Positions 6,603 through 15,405 of a stretch of 46,676 bases of DNA are shown piece by piece. The stretch covers positions 1-46,676 of the forward strand of contig JAABRO010000023.1 of NCBI GenBank assembly GCA_011390885.1. The letters run 5' to 3'. The number at the start of each line of letters is the position of its first letter. Positions within the stretch are counted from its first letter, which is position 1. The notes under the pieces are model-generated. The model searched no databases. It was not told the origin of the DNA and worked only from the letters and a program-made list of their open reading frames with translations. The stretch comes from Gemmatimonas sp. GTDB lineage: Bacteria; Gemmatimonadota; Gemmatimonadetes; Gemmatimonadales; Gemmatimonadaceae. The translations under genes and the position numbers were made by a program.

Positions 6603-6687
6603 CGGGATCGAAGCCGCAGCCGCGGCGATCGCGTCGCCAACGTGCCGTGCCCGTGCGCCTGTCGGACCCGGGCCACATCTTCAGGCC

Positions 6688-7773
6688 ATGCCTTCCCATG
6701 ACAAACTGGTCCGCTGGATCGACCTCATCACTGCGCTGCTGCGCCGGCGCTACCCTGCCAGCTTCGAGGAGCTGGCGCGCGACGTGCCCGACTACGACTA
6801 CGACGGCCAGCCCTCCGACACGCTCAAGCGCAAGTTCGAGCGCGACAAGGATGAGTTGCGCAAGGCGGGGGTCGCCATCGAGACCGTCCCTGAAGCCGAC
6901 GGCGAGTCCTCGCGCTACGCGTTGAGCGCGAAGGCCTTCTACCTGCCGTTTCTCGTGATCCTCGGGGCCGATGCACCGCCCGGCGCGCGTCCCGAGGGGT
7001 ACCGCGCGCTCGCCACGCTCGCCCTGCTCCCCGAAGAGGCGGCCATGCTGCGACGGGCTGCCGAGCGGGTCGCGCTGCTCGATGCCGAGTCGCTCACCGT
7101 GGACGCGAACCAAGCGCTGCGCAAGCTGCGCTACGACCTGCCCGGCGAACTGCCCGCGCCGCCCGAATCGGTGCCCGCGAGCAACGGCACGGTCTTTCGC
7201 GCACTGGTGGACGCGACCGAGCGCGCGAAGCGCGTGACCTTCTCGTATCACAGCATGGGACGCGGCGAGCCATCGCTGCGCACCGTGGAGCCCTATGGCC
7301 TCGTGTACCTCACGGGCCATTGGTACCTGGTGGCCCACGACCCGGCGCTCGGCGAGATCCGCCACTATCGCACCTCGCGCATGCACGAGGTGAAGGTGAA
7401 CGACAAGCAGCCGGGGAGCGCCGACTTCACGGTGCCCCGCGGCTTCGACCTCAAGGCGCACGCGCGCTCGCGACAGGCATGGGAACTCGGCACCGGCGAC
7501 ATCGAGGCCATCGACGTGCTGTTCCGCGGACAGGGCGGTGACGTGACCGCCGCGCTTCGGATCGGCGAGCCGGTGGCGCACGACGGCGCCGAACCGCGCC
7601 TGCGCTTCCATGTGCGCCGCCGCGACACGTTCCTGCGCTGGGTGCTGGCCTTCGCCGGCGACGCGGAGCCCGTGGCACCGCCAGAGGTCGTCGACGACTG
7701 GCATACGCTCGTGCGCGACACGCTCGCCGCGCATCAGCGCGCGGCGGATACGCCCGCCGCGGAGGTCGCATGA
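6688..7773 (+). CDS. WYL-domain transcriptional regulator (PafB-like)
   Basis: A 361-residue protein with an N-terminal winged HTH (about 1-75, LRRRYPASFEELARDVPDY then a DTLKRKFERDKDELRKAG recognition region) and a WYL domain (about 170-240) carrying the literal WYL motif in GHWYLVAHD followed by IRHYRTSRM. WYL domains sense nucleic acid or nucleotide ligands; PafBC in actinobacteria activates DNA-damage genes. The last codons overlap the next WYL gene by ATGA, giving the PafB-PafC tandem layout. ATG 6688 is chosen because it opens directly at the HTH. Confidence 0.88.
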   Translation: MPSHDKLVRWIDLITALLRRRYPASFEELARDVPDYDYDGQPSDTLKRKFERDKDELRKAGVAIETVPEADGESSRYALSAKAFYLPFLVILGADAPPGARPEGYRALATLALLPEEAAMLRRAAERVALLDAESLTVDANQALRKLRYDLPGELPAPPESVPASNGTVFRALVDATERAKRVTFSYHSMGRGEPSLRTVEPYGLVYLTGHWYLVAHDPALGEIRHYRTSRMHEVKVNDKQPGSADFTVPRGFDLKAHARSRQAWELGTGDIEAIDVLFRGQGGDVTAALRIGEPVAHDGAEPRLRFHVRRRDTFLRWVLAFAGDAEPVAPPEVVDDWHTLVRDTLAAHQRAADTPAAEVA

Positions 7774-8753
7774 GCGCGCGCGCGCAGGACCAGCTCGAGC
7801 GGCTGCTGCTCGCGCTGCCGCACCTGGCGGAGGACACGGAGATTCCGGTCACGGAGCTCGCGGCGATCGTGGGGTGCGATGCCGACACGCTGCTGGGTGA
7901 TCTCGAGGCACTCACCTCACTCGACCGGGACATCGCCGGCCACGTCGAATCCATCGAGCTGTTCCTGACGGCCGGCTCCGTGGGCGCGCGCACGTCGCAC
8001 TTCCGGCGCCCCATGCGCCTGTCGCGCAGCGAACTCGCCGCACTCGACCTCGGACTCGGCCTGCTCCTCCTCGAGCGGCCGCTCGAGGAGCGCGGCACGG
8101 TCCGCACCGTGCGGCGGAAGCTGCGCGAGGCGTCGGTGCTGCCGCCGGCGCGCGTCAGCCAGGGCGTCGTCACGCGCGCCGAGCCGACGCCGGCGCTGCC
8201 GGTCGAGGCCGAGGGCGTGCCGGAGCCACACCTCGAGTCCTTCGGTCGGTTGTGCACGGCGCACGAGGAGCGGCGCGCCGTGCAGCTCACGTATCAGCGG
8301 GCCGGGGCCGCGTCGGCCGACGTGCGCCTCGTGCATCCGTGGGCCATCGTGCGCGCGCATCAGCACGTGTACGTGGTGGGCTGGTGCACGAATGCGACCG
8401 CCGTGCGCGTCTTCCGGCTCGACCGCATCGTGCAGGTGGAGCTCGACGGGGCGCGCTTCGACGTCCCGTCCGACTTCAACGTGGACGCGGTGCTGCGCGA
8501 AGGACGCATCTTCTCGGGTGAGTGTCCCGAGGACGAACTCGTGGTGCACTACTCCCCGCGCATCGCGCGCTGGATCGCCGAACGCGAGCAGCTGCCGCTC
8601 GAGTCCGACGGCTCCGTGACCGTCACCTGGCCGCTCGCCGATGACGACTGGGCGGTGCGGCACGTGCTCCAGTACGGCGTCGATGCCACGGTCGTCTCGC
8701 CCGCTCGCATTCGCGAGCAGGTGCTGGCCACGCTGCAGCGCCTCGGCGCTTGA
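7770..8753 (+). CDS. WYL-domain transcriptional regulator (PafC-like partner)
   Basis: A 327-residue protein that overlaps the upstream WYL regulator by 4 bp (ATGA). It has an N-terminal winged-helix region (LLALPHLAEDTEIPVTELAAIVGCDADTLL in pieces), then a WYL domain with HPWAIVRAHQHVYVVGWC and VFRLDRI, and a C-terminal WCX-type segment. The WYL tripeptide itself is diverged (VYV). The tandem order and size match PafB/PafC heterodimeric regulators, so the two products probably form one complex. The DNA target cannot be deduced. A TTGACA promoter element of the next unit overlaps its stop codon region. Confidence 0.86.
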   Translation: MSARAQDQLERLLLALPHLAEDTEIPVTELAAIVGCDADTLLGDLEALTSLDRDIAGHVESIELFLTAGSVGARTSHFRRPMRLSRSELAALDLGLGLLLLERPLEERGTVRTVRRKLREASVLPPARVSQGVVTRAEPTPALPVEAEGVPEPHLESFGRLCTAHEERRAVQLTYQRAGAASADVRLVHPWAIVRAHQHVYVVGWCTNATAVRVFRLDRIVQVELDGARFDVPSDFNVDAVLREGRIFSGECPEDELVVHYSPRIARWIAEREQLPLESDGSVTVTWPLADDDWAVRHVLQYGVDATVVSPARIREQVLATLQRLGA

Positions 8754-8981: not shown

Positions 8982-10037
8982 ATGATCATCGTCACTGCCA
9001 TCGGCACCCCCGACTCCGCCATCGAACGCATCGTCGAGCACGTCGAGCGGTGCGGCCTGCGCGTCAACGTCAGTCGCGGCGAGCAGCGCACCATCATCGG
9101 CTGCATCGGCGACCACGACCGCCTCATCGCCGCCAACCTCGGGCGGCTCGAAGGCGTCGAGCAGGTGCTCAAGGTGGGCAAGCCGTACAAGCTCGCCTCC
9201 CGCGCCTTCGCGGCCAGCCCCACGCACGTGGCACTCGGCGATGCGGCGGGCACGGTGGTGGGAGGGCGCGAGCTCGTGGTGATCGGCGGCCCCTGCTCGG
9301 TCGAGGGGCGCGACATGCTGCAGCACACCGCGCGTGCCGTGCAGGCGTCCGGCGCGCGCGCGCTGCGCGGCGGGGCATTCAAGCCGCGCTCGAGCCCCTA
9401 CGCCTTCCAGGGGCTGGGTGCCGAGGCGCTCGAACTGCTCGCCGAAACGCGCCGCGACACCGGCCTGCCCGTGGTCACCGAAGTGCTCGATCCGCGCCAG
9501 GTGGAGCTGGTGGCCGAGTACGCCGACGTGCTGCAGGTGGGCGCGCGCAACATGCAGAACTTCGCGCTGCTCACCGAACTCGGGCAGGCGCGGCGTCGGG
9601 TGCTGCTCAAGCGCGGGCTGTCGGCCACGATCACCGAGCTGCTCATGGCGGCCGAGTACATCCTGGCGCAGGGGAACACGCAGGTCATGCTGTGCGAGCG
9701 CGGCATCCGCACCTATGAGACCGCCACGCGCAACACGCTCGACGTGGCGGCGATCCCCGTGCTCAAGCGCGAAACGCACCTGCCGGTGCTGGTGGACCCG
9801 AGCCACGCCGCAGGCAAGGCCGACCTCGTCACGCCACTCGCCATGGCGGCGATCGCCGCCGGCGCCGACGGCCTGCTCGTGGAGGTGCACCCCGATCCCA
9901 CCTGCGCGCAGTCCGACGGCGAGCAGTCGCTCACCTTCGAGGCCTTCGACCAGCTCATGCGCCAGGCACGCGTGCTCGCCGGCGCGATGGGACGCACGAT
10001 CGCACCGGCCACGGTGGTGGAGTCGGCAGCCGTGTGA
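8982..10037 (+). CDS. aroF: 3-deoxy-7-phosphoheptulonate synthase (type I beta)
   Basis: A 351-residue DAHP synthase that condenses phosphoenolpyruvate and erythrose 4-phosphate, the first step of aromatic amino acid synthesis. Residues 1-70 form the ferredoxin-like regulatory domain typical of the type I beta class. The barrel follows, with [11 protein letters not shown], the [11 protein letters not shown] substrate loop, [19 protein letters not shown] and the VDPSHAAGK metal and phosphate site. ATG 8982 opens the regulatory domain. It sits behind its own promoter, leader peptide and terminator hairpin, so expression is probably controlled by attenuation in addition to feedback inhibition. 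It is convergent with bchJ, with 4 bp between the stops. Confidence 0.95.
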
Positions 10038-10041
10038 CCGG

Positions 10042-10716
10042 CTACGCCCAGCGCACCTCGTAGCGGCACGCGCGCCCGCCCGACGCGGCGCTCTCCACCT
10101 GCGCCACGCACGTGTCGCGCCGCACGAGCCGCGACAGCAGCTCTTCGAACGTGCCGGCGTAGAAGTCGCACACCGGCGCGTCGAGCGTGAGCCCGCGGCA
10201 CAGCGGACACTCGGCGATCGTGAACTCGGGCGACGGCGAATAGCGCACGTGGAAGTGTCCGCTCCCTGCGAACGTCCAGGCATGCTGCGCCATGGCGCGC
10301 GCGAGGATGCGCACACCGATCGGGGCGGGGAGTACGCGCAGCAGCCACTGCACGGGGCGCGGGATGCGATGCGCGAGCAGGTACTCGGCGGTGCGCTGTC
10401 CCGATTCGCGTAGCACGGCCTGTGTCTGGCGCGGCCCGAGGTGCGCGAGGCAGGTGCGCACCAGGGCGCGCACCTCCGACTCGTCCACCATGTGCTCCGG
10501 CATCTGCTCCATGGTGCGACCGGTCGCCTCGGCAAGCATGGCCTCGGCCTTCGCGCGTCCGTACCGGTCGCGCAGCACGCGCGCCGTCTGGATCACGGCG
10601 TTGGGCCCGATGCGCGCCGAGGATTCGACGGCATCGGGCGTGTGCGCGGCGCGGTGGTCAGACGGTGCGTGAGAAGCGCGGGGCTTCGGTTCCGAGCTGC
10701 GGCTTGCGGTAGGCAT
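10042..10716 (-). CDS. bchJ: BchJ-like V4R-domain protein (bacteriochlorophyll synthesis)
   Basis: A protein of about 224 residues, with features I associate with Bch[10 protein letters not shown] near the start, [37 protein letters not shown], and a C-terminal V4R (4-vinyl reductase type) domain with several cysteines ([19 protein letters not shown]). BchJ is encoded in photosynthesis gene clusters, often beside bchE. It was first proposed as the vinyl reductase of bacteriochlorophyll synthesis and is now thought to assist the pathway. ATG 10716 is chosen; it overlaps the end of hemN by 59 bp and has no clear Shine-Dalgarno, so translational coupling is likely. The exact start is uncertain. 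It is the last gene of the bchE-hemN-bchJ run. Confidence 0.82.
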
Positions 10717-12010
10717 CGAGCGCCATGGCGAGGTTGCGCAGGAAGAAGCGTCCGGTCGGCGTGACCGTGATCGCTCGTTCCCCGATGAGGACCAGGCCAT
10801 CGGCTTCGAAGGCTCGGAAGGCGTCCAGCGTGCTGCCGTCGTCGTCGGGGAGCAGCGCCCGGTCGAGATGGCTGTTGCAGAGCAGTTCGCGAATGGCGCG
10901 CCCGCGTGCGCGGTCTTCCGCGGTGAGCTTGTGGCCGCGCGTGACGGGAAGCAGCCCCGCGTCCACCGCGCGCTGCCACTCGCCGAGGTGCGCGAAGTTC
11001 TGGATGAAGTAGTCGCCCACCTCGCCGATCGCGCTCACGCCCACGCCGATCAGGTTGCGTGACTGGCGCGTGGTGTAGCCCATGAAGTCGCGGTGCAGCC
11101 GCCCTTCGTCGGCCGCGCGCGCCAGTTCGTCGTCGGGGCGCGCGAAGTGGTCGAGGCCGATCCACACGTAGCCCGCGTCGGTGAAGCGCTCGACCGCCAG
11201 CTGGTAGAGCTCGAAACGCAGCGCGCGGTCGGGGAGCGCCTGTTCATCCATGCGCCGCTGGTGCGGGCGAATCCAGGGCACGTGCGCGTAGCCGAAGCAG
11301 GCGATGCGGTCCGGGTTGAGTGCGATGACCTCGTCGATCGTGTCACGGAACGACGTGACCGACTGATGCGGCAGGCCGTAGATCACGTCCACGTTGAGCG
11401 ACCGGAAGCCGGCCGCGCGCGCCTGGTCCACCACGGTGCGCACCATGCCCACCGGCTGCACGCGCCCGATCCCTTCCTGCACGATCGGGTCGAGGTCCTG
11501 CACGCCGAAGCTGATGCGATCGAAGCCGAGCGCGCGCAGCGTGGCGAGCTGCGACGGCGTGACGAGGCGCGGATCGGCCTCGACGGAGCATTCGATGTCG
11601 TCGGCGAGCGTGAACGCCTGCGCGATCAGGCCGAACGCGCGGCGGATCTGCGCGTCGTCGAGGAAGTTGGGCGTGCCGCCCCCCCAGTGCAGCTCGCGCA
11701 GGACCGGCGCGCGTCCGACGGCGTCGGTCACCATGCGCAGCTCGCGCTCGAGCCGCGCGAGGTACTGGTCCACCACCTGCGCGCGCGTGGTCACCGTGGC
11801 CGTGCAGCCGCAGTACAGGCAGCGCGACGCACAGAAGGGGAGGTGCACGTACAGCGCGAGGTCGCCGTTGCCGAGCGACGCGAGCGCCGTGCGGTACACG
11901 GTTTCGTCCACGCCGCCGGTCCAGTCGGGGACCGGCGGGTAGCTGGTGTAGCGCGGACCGGGGGCGTCGTACTTCGCGAGCAGCTCCGGCGGGATCACGG
12001 GCAGGGGCAT
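10658..12010 (-). CDS. hemN: Oxygen-independent coproporphyrinogen III oxidase (radical SAM)
   Basis: A 450-residue protein, close to the usual HemN length. The N-terminus shows YDAPGPRYTSYPP and the radical-SAM cluster motif C60-x3-C64-x2-C67 followed by GC (HLPFCASRCLYCGC). The HemN-specific GGGTPNFL, ISFGVQD and DVIYGLPHQ segments follow, then the C-terminal HemN domain (FMGYTTRQSRNLIGVGVSAIG). It converts coproporphyrinogen III to protoporphyrinogen IX without oxygen, feeding heme and bacteriochlorophyll. ATG 12010 follows the bchE stop by 7 bp, so co-transcription is expected. HemN genes are common inside photosynthesis gene clusters. Confidence 0.95.
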   Translation of the reverse strand: MPLPVIPPELLAKYDAPGPRYTSYPPVPDWTGGVDETVYRTALASLGNGDLALYVHLPFCASRCLYCGCTATVTTRAQVVDQYLARLERELRMVTDAVGRAPVLRELHWGGGTPNFLDDAQIRRAFGLIAQAFTLADDIECSVEADPRLVTPSQLATLRALGFDRISFGVQDLDPIVQEGIGRVQPVGMVRTVVDQARAAGFRSLNVDVIYGLPHQSVTSFRDTIDEVIALNPDRIACFGYAHVPWIRPHQRRMDEQALPDRALRFELYQLAVERFTDAGYVWIGLDHFARPDDELARAADEGRLHRDFMGYTTRQSRNLIGVGVSAIGEVGDYFIQNFAHLGEWQRAVDAGLLPVTRGHKLTAEDRARGRAIRELLCNSHLDRALLPDDDGSTLDAFRAFEADGLVLIGERAITVTPTGRFFLRNLAMALDAYRKPQLGTEAPRFSRTV

Positions 12011-12017
12011 GACGGTC

Positions 12018-13616
12018 TCAGCAGGCGCGAATGGCGTCGTCCTGCGGTCGCGCCGGCTCCATGCCGCGGATCGGGACGCTGCCGGCGTAGTCCACGTCGG
12101 CCGCGAGTTCGGGGCGCGCCTCGGAGAGCGTGCGCAGCTCCTCGCGCGTGAACACCTTGTCCTCGTCGAAGTCGAAGTCCACGTTCGCGCCGGTCGCACC
12201 GAAGTTGATGCGGCCGAGGTCGTAGAACGTCTTGTTGGCCGTGGTCTTCGCGAACGCCTTGAGGCAGCCCATGAGGTAGCGGCGCTTGAAGGGGTCCTTC
12301 TGCCAGGGGTACGACAGGAACGCCTTCTTGCTGTAGAAGCGGCCGTAGTTGCGCAGCACGCCCTTGAGGACCTGCTCGCGCGTCATGGCGTCGGGCTGGA
12401 TGATCGGCGTCACGAAGTTGTACTTCGCGTAGTCGCGCACTTCCACGCGGTCGCCCAGCTCCTGGAACAGCTCGGCGAACGGCCACGGCGTGTACATGTT
12501 CCAGTTGGCCATGTCCGGCTGCCAGTCCTGCGAGTACTTGTACGTCTCCTCGATCGTCTCCGGCGTCTCGTTCTCGAGGCCGATGATGAACTGCGCCTCG
12601 GCCACCATGCCGTTCTGCTTGAGCAGCTGGATGGCGCGCTTGTTCTGCTCGAGCGTGGTCTCCTTGCGGAAGCGGTCGAGCTTGAGCTGCGCGGCCGCTT
12701 CGGTGCCGAGCGAGACGTGCACGAGGCCGGCCTTGCGGTACAGCGGCAGTTCGGCCTCGTCACGCAGGATGTCGGTGACGCGCGTGTTGATGCCCCAGTA
12801 CACCGGCAGGTTGCGCTCGATGAGCGCCTCGCAGAGCGCGATGAACTTCTTCTTGTTGATCGTGGGCTCCTCGTCGGCGAGGATGAAGAAGCCCACCTTG
12901 TGCTCCTTCACCAGCACCTCGATCTCGTCCACGAACTGCTTCGGGTCGCGTGTGCGGTACTTGCGCCAGAACTTCCACTGCGAGCAGAAGCGGCAGGTGA
13001 AGGGGCAGCCGCGCGCGAAGCTCGGCACCGCCACGCGACAGTTGAGCGGGATGTAGATGTACTTGTCCCACTCGAGCAGCGACCAGTCCGGCGTGAGCGA
13101 GTCGAGGTTGGCGATCGGCGGGCGCGCCGGCGTGGCCACCACGCGGCCGTCCTCCACGAACGCGATGCCGCGGATCTCGTGCTTGGTGTTCACGTCGGTG
13201 CCGTCGCGGATCGCCTCGAGCAGCTCGACGGCGATCTCCTCGCCCTCGCCGCGCACGATGTAGTCCGTCCAGGGCGCCTCGGCGAACACCTGCTGGTACA
13301 TGAACGTGGGATGGATGCCCCCCAGGATCGTGCGGACCTTCGGGTTCACCTCGCGCGCGATCTGCAGCGTGCGCTGCGCCTGGTAGATCATCGGCGTGAT
13401 CGCCGTCGTCATCACGACGTCGGGATTGAGCGCGCGCAGCCGGGAGCGCAGGTCGTCGTCCGCGATGTGGTTGGTCATCGCGTCGATGAACGTGATGTCA
13501 CGAAAGCCGGCGTGCTTGAGGGCGCCGCCGATGTAGGCGACCCAGCCCGGAGGCCAGTTGCCGGCGATCTCGGCGCCGCCGGCGTGGTAGTTGGGCTGGA
13601 CGAAGGCAATGCGCAT
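12018..13616 (-). CDS. bchE: Anaerobic Mg-protoporphyrin IX monomethyl ester cyclase BchE
   Basis: A 532-residue B12-binding radical SAM protein. The N-terminal cobalamin-binding domain begins [18 protein letters not shown], followed by DAMTNHI and [13 protein letters not shown]. The radical-SAM motif is C204-x3-C208-x2-C211 in [18 protein letters not shown]. Further BchE-like segments are [40 protein letters not shown] and [15 protein letters not shown]. BchE forms the isocyclic ring of (bacterio)chlorophyll using cobalamin and SAM. The protein is a little shorter than proteobacterial BchE as I remember it, the difference being at the C-terminus. It leads the bchE-hemN-bchJ run. No TGT-N12-ACA (PpsR/CrtJ) site was seen upstream. 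A related non-photosynthetic radical SAM enzyme is the alternative, but the matched segments argue against it. Confidence 0.9.
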
Positions 13617-13769: not shown

Positions 13770-14324
13770 TTACGCCCGCTGCACCACCACGAAGCGCGTC
13801 CAGTTGTGCGGCACGTCCTGGACGCCGCGCGCCAGCACCTGGAGGCCGTAGCGCTCCGCCGCCATCTCGCTGGCGATGGCGGCCACGGCGCGGTCTCCCG
13901 TCTCGGCCACCTCCCGCGCCGCGCCGGCGGTGTCGGCGTGGCCCTGCACGTCGAGCCACTGGTGGCGCGCCAGGAAGATGCGGCACTGCGCAATCGCCAC
14001 CGGGTGGCTGCGCACGGTGCGCACCGTGGCCAGCATCGCGCCCGGCACGCCGAGCAGGCAGAGCACGATGGTGAGTCGGTGCTCACCCGCCACGGCGAGG
14101 GCCGGGCCGGCCGCGTCGAGTGCGTCGAGGGCGAGACGCACCGGGCCGGCGATGGCGTTCTCGACCGGGATCATGGCCCGGTCACAGCGCCCGTCGGCCA
14201 CGGCCTCGAGCGCCTCGGTGAAGCTGCGGAACGGCACGGCCACCACGTCGGCCCCGAAGTGCTGGCGCACGGCGAGATCGGAGTAGGCCCCCGGCTCGCC
14301 CTGGTAGGCGATGCGCAGCGGCAC
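13770..14324 (-). CDS. pheA: Prephenate dehydratase, catalytic domain only
   Basis: A protein of about 184 residues matching the prephenate dehydratase catalytic domain: LRIAYQGEPGAYSDLAV at the start, IPVENAIAGPV, the REVAETGDRAVAAIAS segment and the catalytic TRF motif in NWTRFVVV at the very end. It makes phenylpyruvate from prephenate in phenylalanine synthesis. Most bacterial homologues carry a C-terminal ACT domain for Phe feedback; here the protein ends seven residues after TRF, so that domain is missing. GTG 14324 is preferred because it opens at MPLRIAYQG with a GGA upstream; GTG 14339 is the alternative. It lies just after the Vgb-like gene on the same strand. Confidence 0.88.
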   Translation of the reverse strand: MPLRIAYQGEPGAYSDLAVRQHFGADVVAVPFRSFTEALEAVADGRCDRAMIPVENAIAGPVRLALDALDAAGPALAVAGEHRLTIVLCLLGVPGAMLATVRTVRSHPVAIAQCRIFLARHQWLDVQGHADTAGAAREVAETGDRAVAAIASEMAAERYGLQVLARGVQDVPHNWTRFVVVQRA

Positions 14325-14346
14325 GGCGCCGTTCCGCACGACGAAA

Positions 14347-15405
14347 TCAGTCCTGCAGCACGGGGAGCCCGCGCGGCACGACCGCGCGCCCGAGCTGCCC
14401 GAGGTCGCTGCCGTACCAGATGCTGCGCGTCTTGGGGTCATACACCATGTGGCGCACCGCGTTGGTGGCGTTCTCGCCGATGGTGGTGTTGCTGAAGACG
14501 CGCTGCGACTTCGTGTCGAAGCCTACGAGGCGGTTGGGTCGCACGCCCGTCTCCACCACCCACACGCGATCCTGCTCGTCCACCGTCATGGCGTACGGCA
14601 GCGAGGCACCCTTGCTCGGCAGCTCGAACTCCTTCACCGTGCCGGTCGCCGGGTCGAGCCGCCCAAGGAAGCCGCGCGAGTAGTCGGTGTACCAGATGCC
14701 GCCGTCGCTGGTGCGCGCGATGCGACGCGGACGCGTGCGCTCGTTGGGGAGCACGTACTCGCGCACGGCCTTCGTGGCCGGATCGATCACGCCGATCTTG
14801 TTCGTGCCGAAGAGGTCGAACCAGACCTTGCCATCGGGCGCGACGATCACGCCGTAGGGTCGCGAACGCGGCGTGGGCATGTCGATGAGCCGCACCGCGC
14901 CGCTGGTGGCGTCGAGGAAGCCCATCTTGTTCGAGTTCTGCAGCGAGAACCACAGGTTGCCCGCCGCGTCGAAGTCGATCGTGTGCGGATCGCGCGCGGC
15001 GGCGTCGGGCATGGGGTAGCGCCGGATGGCCATGGTGCGGCCGTCGATGCGCCCGATCATGCCGTTCTGGTTGCCCGCGTACCAGGCATTGCCCTGCTTG
15101 TCCACCACGACCGTGTGGGGGTGGGTGCCGGAGTCGATGGCGATCCGCTGGAAGCGGCCGTCGGCCGGCGTGAAGTAGGCCACGTAGTTGCCGGCCTGCC
15201 CCACGAACCAGACCCGGTCACCCGCGGGTGCGACGTACGGATCGCGCGGCCGTCCCTTCCAGGGCACGTCCCACGCGCTGTGCTGGACGGTGTCCGCGCC
15301 CCGCGCCACGGCCTGCGCCACGAGAGGGTCGGGGGTGAGCAGCGGCCAGACGAGAGCAATCAGTGCCGCGACAGCGGCGCGATGTTGGAAACCGAACACG
15401 GGCAC
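14347..15405 (-). CDS. Secreted Vgb-like / SMP-30-type beta-propeller protein
   Basis: A 352-residue protein with an N-terminal signal peptide (AVAALIALVWPLL, cleavage near VAQA) and then six or seven repeats of the form D-x-x-G-N-x-W-F/Y typical of the virginiamycin B lyase/NHL propeller fold (PHTVVVDKQGNAWYAG, PHTIDFDAAGNLWFS, YGVIVAPDGKVWFD, RRIARTSDGGIWYTD, YAMTVDEQDRVWVVE). Members are periplasmic hydrolases or lyases; the substrate cannot be inferred. GTG 15405 is the start. The next gene, pheA, starts 22 bp after its stop, so they may be co-transcribed with the bchE run. Confidence 0.85.
   Translation of the reverse strand: MPVFGFQHRAAVAALIALVWPLLTPDPLVAQAVARGADTVQHSAWDVPWKGRPRDPYVAPAGDRVWFVGQAGNYVAYFTPADGRFQRIAIDSGTHPHTVVVDKQGNAWYAGNQNGMIGRIDGRTMAIRRYPMPDAAARDPHTIDFDAAGNLWFSLQNSNKMGFLDATSGAVRLIDMPTPRSRPYGVIVAPDGKVWFDLFGTNKIGVIDPATKAVREYVLPNERTRPRRIARTSDGGIWYTDYSRGFLGRLDPATGTVKEFELPSKGASLPYAMTVDEQDRVWVVETGVRPNRLVGFDTKSQRVFSNTTIGENATNAVRHMVYDPKTRSIWYGSDLGQLGRAVVPRGLPVLQD

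Follow-up and report, generated by a model that had tools for sequence, protein, structure and literature searches.

Within the Gemmatimonadota the closest described system is that of Gemmatimonas phototrophica, which has acsF together with bchE and hemF together with hemN, and the same report gives G. groenlandica as being without bchE and hemN (Zeng et al. 2021, PMC7844134). A later report places an oxygen-independent coproporphyrinogen oxidase gene, bchJ, bchE and hemJ at a G. phototrophica locus outside the photosynthesis gene cluster (PGC) (2022, PMC9862903), and some Myxococcota have a satellite bchE outside a PGC that has acsF (PMC10576062). Here we describe a bchE-hemN-bchJ trio on contig JAABRO010000023.1 of Gemmatimonas sp.; the stretch of DNA analysed is this whole contig (C23; 46,676 bases), referred to as the window. 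Our data suggest, with a probability of roughly 0.87, that the trio serves a phototrophic member of the Gemmatimonadota as the low-oxygen arm of its bacteriochlorophyll synthesis. We also report that bchE of the Gemmatimonadota is of two kinds, for which no published report was found in the accessible parts of the open-access literature. The satellite trio is largely known already, and the two-kind result is the part for which no earlier report was found.

The trio and the photosynthesis genes of its genome

The following features constitute the trio:
bchE, 12018..13616, minus strand: anaerobic Mg-protoporphyrin IX monomethyl ester cyclase, type A (see below), based on TIGR02026, the tree and dN/dS
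hemN, 10658..12010, minus strand: oxygen-independent coproporphyrinogen III oxidase, based on TIGR00538, with start ATG 12010
bchJ, 10042..10716, minus strand: V4R-domain bacteriochlorophyll-synthesis accessory protein, based on TIGR02019, with start ATG 10716

A sequence-only reading of the window had named the three genes in this way, and each product scores far above the cut-off of its profile. Specifically, BchE reaches 811.8 bits on the equivalog profile TIGR02026 (cut-off 481.35) and has an N-terminal B12-binding domain followed by a radical S-adenosylmethionine (SAM) domain with the Cys motif CPFTCRFC (CxxxCxxC). HemN reaches 480 bits on TIGR00538 (cut-off 324.95) and carries the motif CASRCLYCGC (CxxxCxxCxC) expected of HemN. 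The product of 10042-10716 belongs to the BchJ family, as had been proposed, with 205 bits on TIGR02019 (cut-off 74.3) and a V4R domain (PF02830, 45.3 bits). The spacing given earlier is likewise correct for the starts listed: hemN and bchE are separated by 7 bp with the hemN start at ATG 12010, and bchJ and hemN overlap by 59 bp only with the bchJ start at ATG 10716, while the BchJ profile itself begins at 10614 and other starts exist. The organism is a Gemmatimonadota member, which the earlier reading had raised as a possibility, and relative to the same-genus genome of Gemmatimonas sp. S07.Bin085 (G184) the ratios of nonsynonymous to synonymous substitution (dN/dS) are 0.069 for bchE, 0.153 for hemN and 0.162 for bchJ, with 0.156 for the neighbouring aroF. 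All three frames are open and constrained in the window; the trio genes are true members of their families and are under purifying selection.

The genome to which the window belongs (G000; 4.07 Mb, 62 contigs, 95.1% complete) has photosynthesis genes on the contigs C20 and C22. Near the start of C20 lie bchZ, bchY, bchX, bchI and bchD, and C22 carries pufM, puhA, acsF, bchM, bchH, bchB, bchN, ppsR and bchG and, further, bchP, hemA, hemE and hemF, with a protoporphyrinogen oxidase-like reading frame (judged by eye) after hemF. The PGC has probably been split between C20 and C22 by the assembly, since C22 begins inside pufL and bchZ lies ~2 kb from the start of C20. The search of the remaining genome thus found acsF, bchH/D/I, bchN/B, bchX/Y/Z, pufL, pufM and puhA, all on C20/C22. 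Matches to the reaction-centre family, PF00148 (BchN/B/Y/Z type), AcsF and BchH are all on these contigs and none is in the window, which was not scanned for crt or BchI/BchD; the hemJ match of the genome is on C3 and not beside the trio. By its neighbours C23 fits the same organism as C20/C22, because its aroF is 84 to 87% identical to aroF of the three other sampled genomes of the genus. The sequence-only reading had left the choice between a satellite of a PGC located elsewhere and a retained remnant. Because PGC genes, including those for AcsF and HemF, are on C20/C22, the trio is a satellite low-oxygen arm and not a remnant. HemF and AcsF, which use oxygen, and their oxygen-independent counterparts HemN and BchE are all encoded in this one genome.

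What the trio would do, when oxygen is low and in the case of BchJ too, we infer from the gene families as follows. HemN, which converts coproporphyrinogen III using SAM instead of oxygen, would oxidise this intermediate in place of HemF, and BchE would close the isocyclic ring in place of AcsF with water, SAM, cobalamin and an iron-sulphur cluster. At low oxygen, the two oxygen-using steps, the enzymes of which are encoded in or beside the PGC, would in this way be bypassed. BchE is described as closing the E-ring with oxygen from water and as requiring cobalamin and an iron-sulphur cluster (PMC7242693). BchJ probably passes pigment intermediates between enzymes or enhances them; it is not established as the (8-)vinyl reductase of its old name, a role against which the literature speaks in general (PMC4432870, PMC7242693), and mutant work indicates a carrier, scaffold or enhancer role (PMC4432870). 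In the sequence-only reading the three genes together would run the steps from coproporphyrinogen to divinyl-protochlorophyllide; this goes too far, as the route between the two also requires protoporphyrinogen oxidase, Mg chelatase and BchM. For these intervening steps BchH, BchI, BchD and BchM are encoded on C20/C22, and the chelatase, BchM and the reductases encoded there would take up the intermediates.

Two kinds of bchE and the histories of the partner genes

The window BchE is 80 to 95% identical to one set of Gemmatimonadota BchE (type A), and 64 to 68% identical to another (type B); for BchE from other phyla the identity reaches 75% among the matches listed. Type B is present in nine other sampled genomes, one of them in the window's own genus (G243). 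The BchE tree has 61 rows, i.e. the window, 18 Gemmatimonadota loci, 36 of the 80 best-matching loci (34 of other phyla, L186 and L200), four plasmid loci and two outgroup rows; it leaves out L194 (type B) and records duplicating Gemmatimonadota loci, and L037, with a longest frame that seemed to be antisense, was not kept as an outgroup. Among the matches listed, the 80 loci are the nearest to type A of the window, which biases the sample towards relatives of that type and leaves alphaproteobacterial relatives of type B under-sampled. In this tree the window BchE groups with BchE of phototrophs, apart from the two very distant B12 radical SAM outgroup rows, in keeping with the sequence-only reading. 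Type A forms a group of 10 rows (support 100/100) within a starred 45-row group (96/100) that also comprises Gammaproteobacteria, Chloroflexota, Cyanobacteria, Heliobacteria and Eremiobacterota. Of the five alphaproteobacterial rows two belong to this group, and the remaining three are outside it together with all 11 rows of type B. Forcing types A and B together is rejected in the approximately unbiased (AU) test (p = 4e-5), and type B as a single clade is neither recovered nor rejected (p = 0.147, quick trees). That the two types are paralogues kept side by side was considered and discarded, as no genome has two matches over the BchE cut-off. The bchE fragments also fall into the two types (G087 and G336 into type B, G079 into type A). 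G243, which belongs to the window's genus by genus code and AcsF (100/100), carries a type B bchE. All three of its trio genes fall among those of g2 genomes (BchE and HemN beside G182, BchJ beside G182 and G087) and its aroF has no trio nearby, which suggests a whole-trio transfer within the family.

The partner genes follow other routes, HemN and BchJ being less well resolved than BchE. In the HemN tree (44 rows, excluding a wrong-frame G166 row) the rows of type A and type B genomes interleave, and one 15-row set (96/93) brings together nine rows from type A genomes, three from type B genomes (G319, G331 and G135) and three from genomes without bchE. HemN of type A genomes alone is rejected as a clade (p = 1e-4), and so is one clade for the 25-row Gemmatimonadota set (p = 0.005, in an earlier tree that included the wrong-frame G166 row). 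The trees with HemN rows held together show very large likelihood losses that may partly reflect poor search, and we therefore put more weight on the starred HemN branches. Similarly, the BchJ tree has a starred group (97/99) in which G319, G331 and G135 (type B) are united with six rows from type A genomes, and type A alone is rejected (p = 0.015); a single clade gives p = 0.07 for all 21 Gemmatimonadota rows and p = 0.28 for the 16 rows that come from f1 and f2. In the type B genomes of family f5, HemN and BchJ fall elsewhere in the trees. For AcsF, the 34 Gemmatimonadota rows as one clade are not recovered and not rejected (p = 0.149).

These trees bear on the possibility that a purple sulphur bacterium was the source of the entire trio in a single block. 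The order bchE-hemN-bchJ is the same in Thiocapsa and Thiocystis loci and on the Thiodictyon plasmid pTs485 (puhABCE-bchE-hemN-bchJ), and the window BchE is 67.9 to 72% identical to BchE of these three genera. The HemN and BchJ trees speak against such an import, however: a grouping of HemN of type A genomes with that of Chromatiaceae is rejected (AU p = 3e-4), as is a grouping of their BchJ with the proteobacterial and Eremiobacterota rows (p = 0.005). Moreover, the window HemN scores 354 to 370 bits against Chromatiaceae-type HemN and 470 to 962 bits against most Gemmatimonadota trio HemN (407 to 427 bits against HemN of G288, G166 and IP29b), and no supported branch of the 61-row tree joins type A BchE with Chromatiaceae. 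We consider the block import improbable.

The chromosomal site has neighbouring genes that lie outside the pathway:
aroF-type 3-deoxy-D-arabino-heptulosonate 7-phosphate (DAHP) synthase gene, 8982..10037, plus strand: convergent neighbour that marks the site (NF006421, 473.7 bits)
gene for a prephenate dehydratase domain protein (pheA-like), 13770..14441, minus strand: upstream neighbour (PF00800, 184.9 bits; the profile starts at residue 44 of the frame)
gene for a Vgb-like beta-propeller protein, 14347..15405, minus strand: upstream neighbour of the site (PF24684, 135 bits), close to aroF in several relatives as well

The trio adjoins aroF in G000 and G184 and lies ~3 to 14 kb from it in G269, G039, G366, G249 and G055, with the order bchE-hemN-bchJ-hemJ in G039 and G249. 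In G331 and G180, hemN is ~3 and 4 kb from aroF and bchE is elsewhere. G019 lacks both a reaction-centre match and BchE, and its hemN-hemJ pair is located ~3 kb from this aroF; G074, in which none of the three trio genes is over the cut-off, has hemJ 4 kb from it. We take G039, G074 and G019 to be G. phototrophica, G. groenlandica and G. aurantiaca, respectively. A hemN already in place may have been flanked by insertion of bchE and bchJ, or G019 may have lost these two genes. BchE splits while hemN and bchJ interleave, and in several genomes hemN lies near the aroF that also has hemN nearby in a genome with neither bchE nor a reaction centre. An exchange of bchE within a heme-gene module of greater age therefore seems to have taken place. 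We lean towards a mosaic module. In most sampled f1 genomes and in G319 of f2, hemN and bchJ would share a history, with hemN near aroF in several genomes, and bchE would have been exchanged at least once for the copy of another lineage, the window's lineage having type A and others type B. The oxygen-using PGC and the oxygen-free arm would have been gained, lost and exchanged independently, and the gene order that is also seen in purple sulphur bacteria would be of separate origin. At window positions 6685-8753 there are two adjacent genes, weak relatives of each other, which adjoin aroF in G184 and G243 too and which may encode WYL-like regulators.

Distribution among Gemmatimonadota genomes

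The sample comprised 395 Gemmatimonadota genomes, most of them incomplete, 44 with a reaction-centre match over the cut-off and 19 with BchE over the cut-off. Among the reaction-centre genomes bchE is kept in 18, two of which are seen incompletely: BchE is full in 16, distributed over two contigs in G336 and cut by a contig end in G087. The remainder consists of one genome with a decayed bchE (G079) and 25 without bchE. HemN is over the cut-off in 18/18 genomes with bchE versus 5/26 without an intact bchE (Fisher p 3e-8), and BchJ in 17/18 versus 2/26, one of the latter being the G079 fragment (Fisher p 4e-9); these p values are only indicative, as the genomes are related and relatedness was not corrected for. 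The order bchE-hemN-bchJ is found in 13 of the 22 BchE-bearing genomes, all of families f1 and f2. The other arrangements among the 22 are bchE-bchJ-hemN (G150 and G344), bchJ-bchE-hemN (G288 and G166), bchE apart from hemN (G180, G331 and G135), the decayed locus of G079 and the split one of G336.

Some points weigh against the trio being a low-oxygen arm of phototrophy. The 25 of 44 reaction-centre genomes without bchE imply that such an arm is dispensable; no FNR-type or PpsR-type site was found upstream of the window bchE by sequence search; and the photosynthesis genes of G. phototrophica were reportedly not among the oxygen-responsive genes, although hemN is one of those that go up when oxygen is lowered (PMC11406998). 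Furthermore, G331, G166 and G352 carry bchE without a match to any PGC family searched.

Full-length BchE with no reaction-centre, AcsF, PF00148 or BchH match is located at C7:691284-692759 in G331 (L092), C2:5561-7045 in G166 (L090) and C310:6685-8166 in G352 (L087). These three genomes raise the question of whether BchE and its partners could have a non-photosynthetic tetrapyrrole job, the PGC of the window genome being incidental. They are only 85 to 95% complete (G331, 8 contigs, 93%; G166, 20 contigs, 95%; G352, 430 contigs, 85%), so a PGC contig may be missing; either contigs are missing or bchE is retained without phototrophy. Incomplete sets are also seen for other genes, with AcsF but no reaction centre in G123 and G367 and the reverse in G093. 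We know of no other role of BchE, and we regard a non-photosynthetic role as very unlikely. Least probable is that the trio is left from a lost phototrophy, decaying or unused: decay is seen in the relative G079 (L100 9190-10222; 99% complete, with reaction centre and AcsF), where the bchE start is fused to part of bchJ and no hemN is over the cut-off, but this reading is ruled out for the window by its three open, constrained frames and the PGC genes on C20 and C22. The single-contig genome G129 (L110, C1:948792-950692), which has a reaction centre, keeps hemN-bchJ with no bchE match, as a remnant might.

The low-oxygen arm reading is thus retained. The trio had also been suggested to bear on how phototrophy is distributed in the phylum; the satellite layout is already in print for G. 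phototrophica and therefore does not by itself change that distribution. Our data rather suggest that the genetic ability for oxygen-free bacteriochlorophyll synthesis is a detachable module in the Gemmatimonadota. Since bchE is present in only 18 of the 44 genomes and its history is unlike that of its neighbours and of AcsF, counts of acsF or reaction-centre genes alone say little about oxygen range, and bchE trees of the Gemmatimonadota cannot stand in for the history of the PGC.

Comparison with known systems

The Chromatiaceae loci (Thiodictyon, Thiocapsa and Thiocystis) have bchE-hemN-bchJ in the same gene order and on the same strand as the window; unlike the window, the Thiodictyon segment adjoins puhABCE and bchM, and the HemN and BchJ of Chromatiaceae are of different lineages. 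In the Rhodobacterales (Roseinatronobacter) bchE is followed by bchJ, as in the window, but there is no hemN between them, the bchE-bchJ-chlorophyll synthase genes are inside the PGC and the BchE falls outside the 45-row group that includes type A. A bchE-bchJ pair is also present on plasmids of Rhodobacteraceae SC52 (L203 5001-7245) and Skermanella mucosa (L204 5001-7209), with no annotated photosynthesis gene within 5 kb of the pair and no AcsF match on either plasmid. The satellite bchE of Myxococcota beside an acsF-bearing PGC resembles the situation in the window genome (PMC10576062).

The nearest counterpart is the locus GEMMAAP_RS19165-19180 (hemN, bchJ, bchE and hemJ) of G. phototrophica AP64, which lies outside the PGC in a genome with acsF and hemF, like the window trio. 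G039, which we take to be AP64, has bchE-hemN-bchJ-hemJ ~3 kb from the same aroF. Unlike in G. phototrophica, hemJ is not adjacent in the window, and the window trio is directly beside aroF and the pheA-like gene. The window genome, which combines a PGC having acsF and hemF with the genes bchE and hemN, fits the G. phototrophica type.

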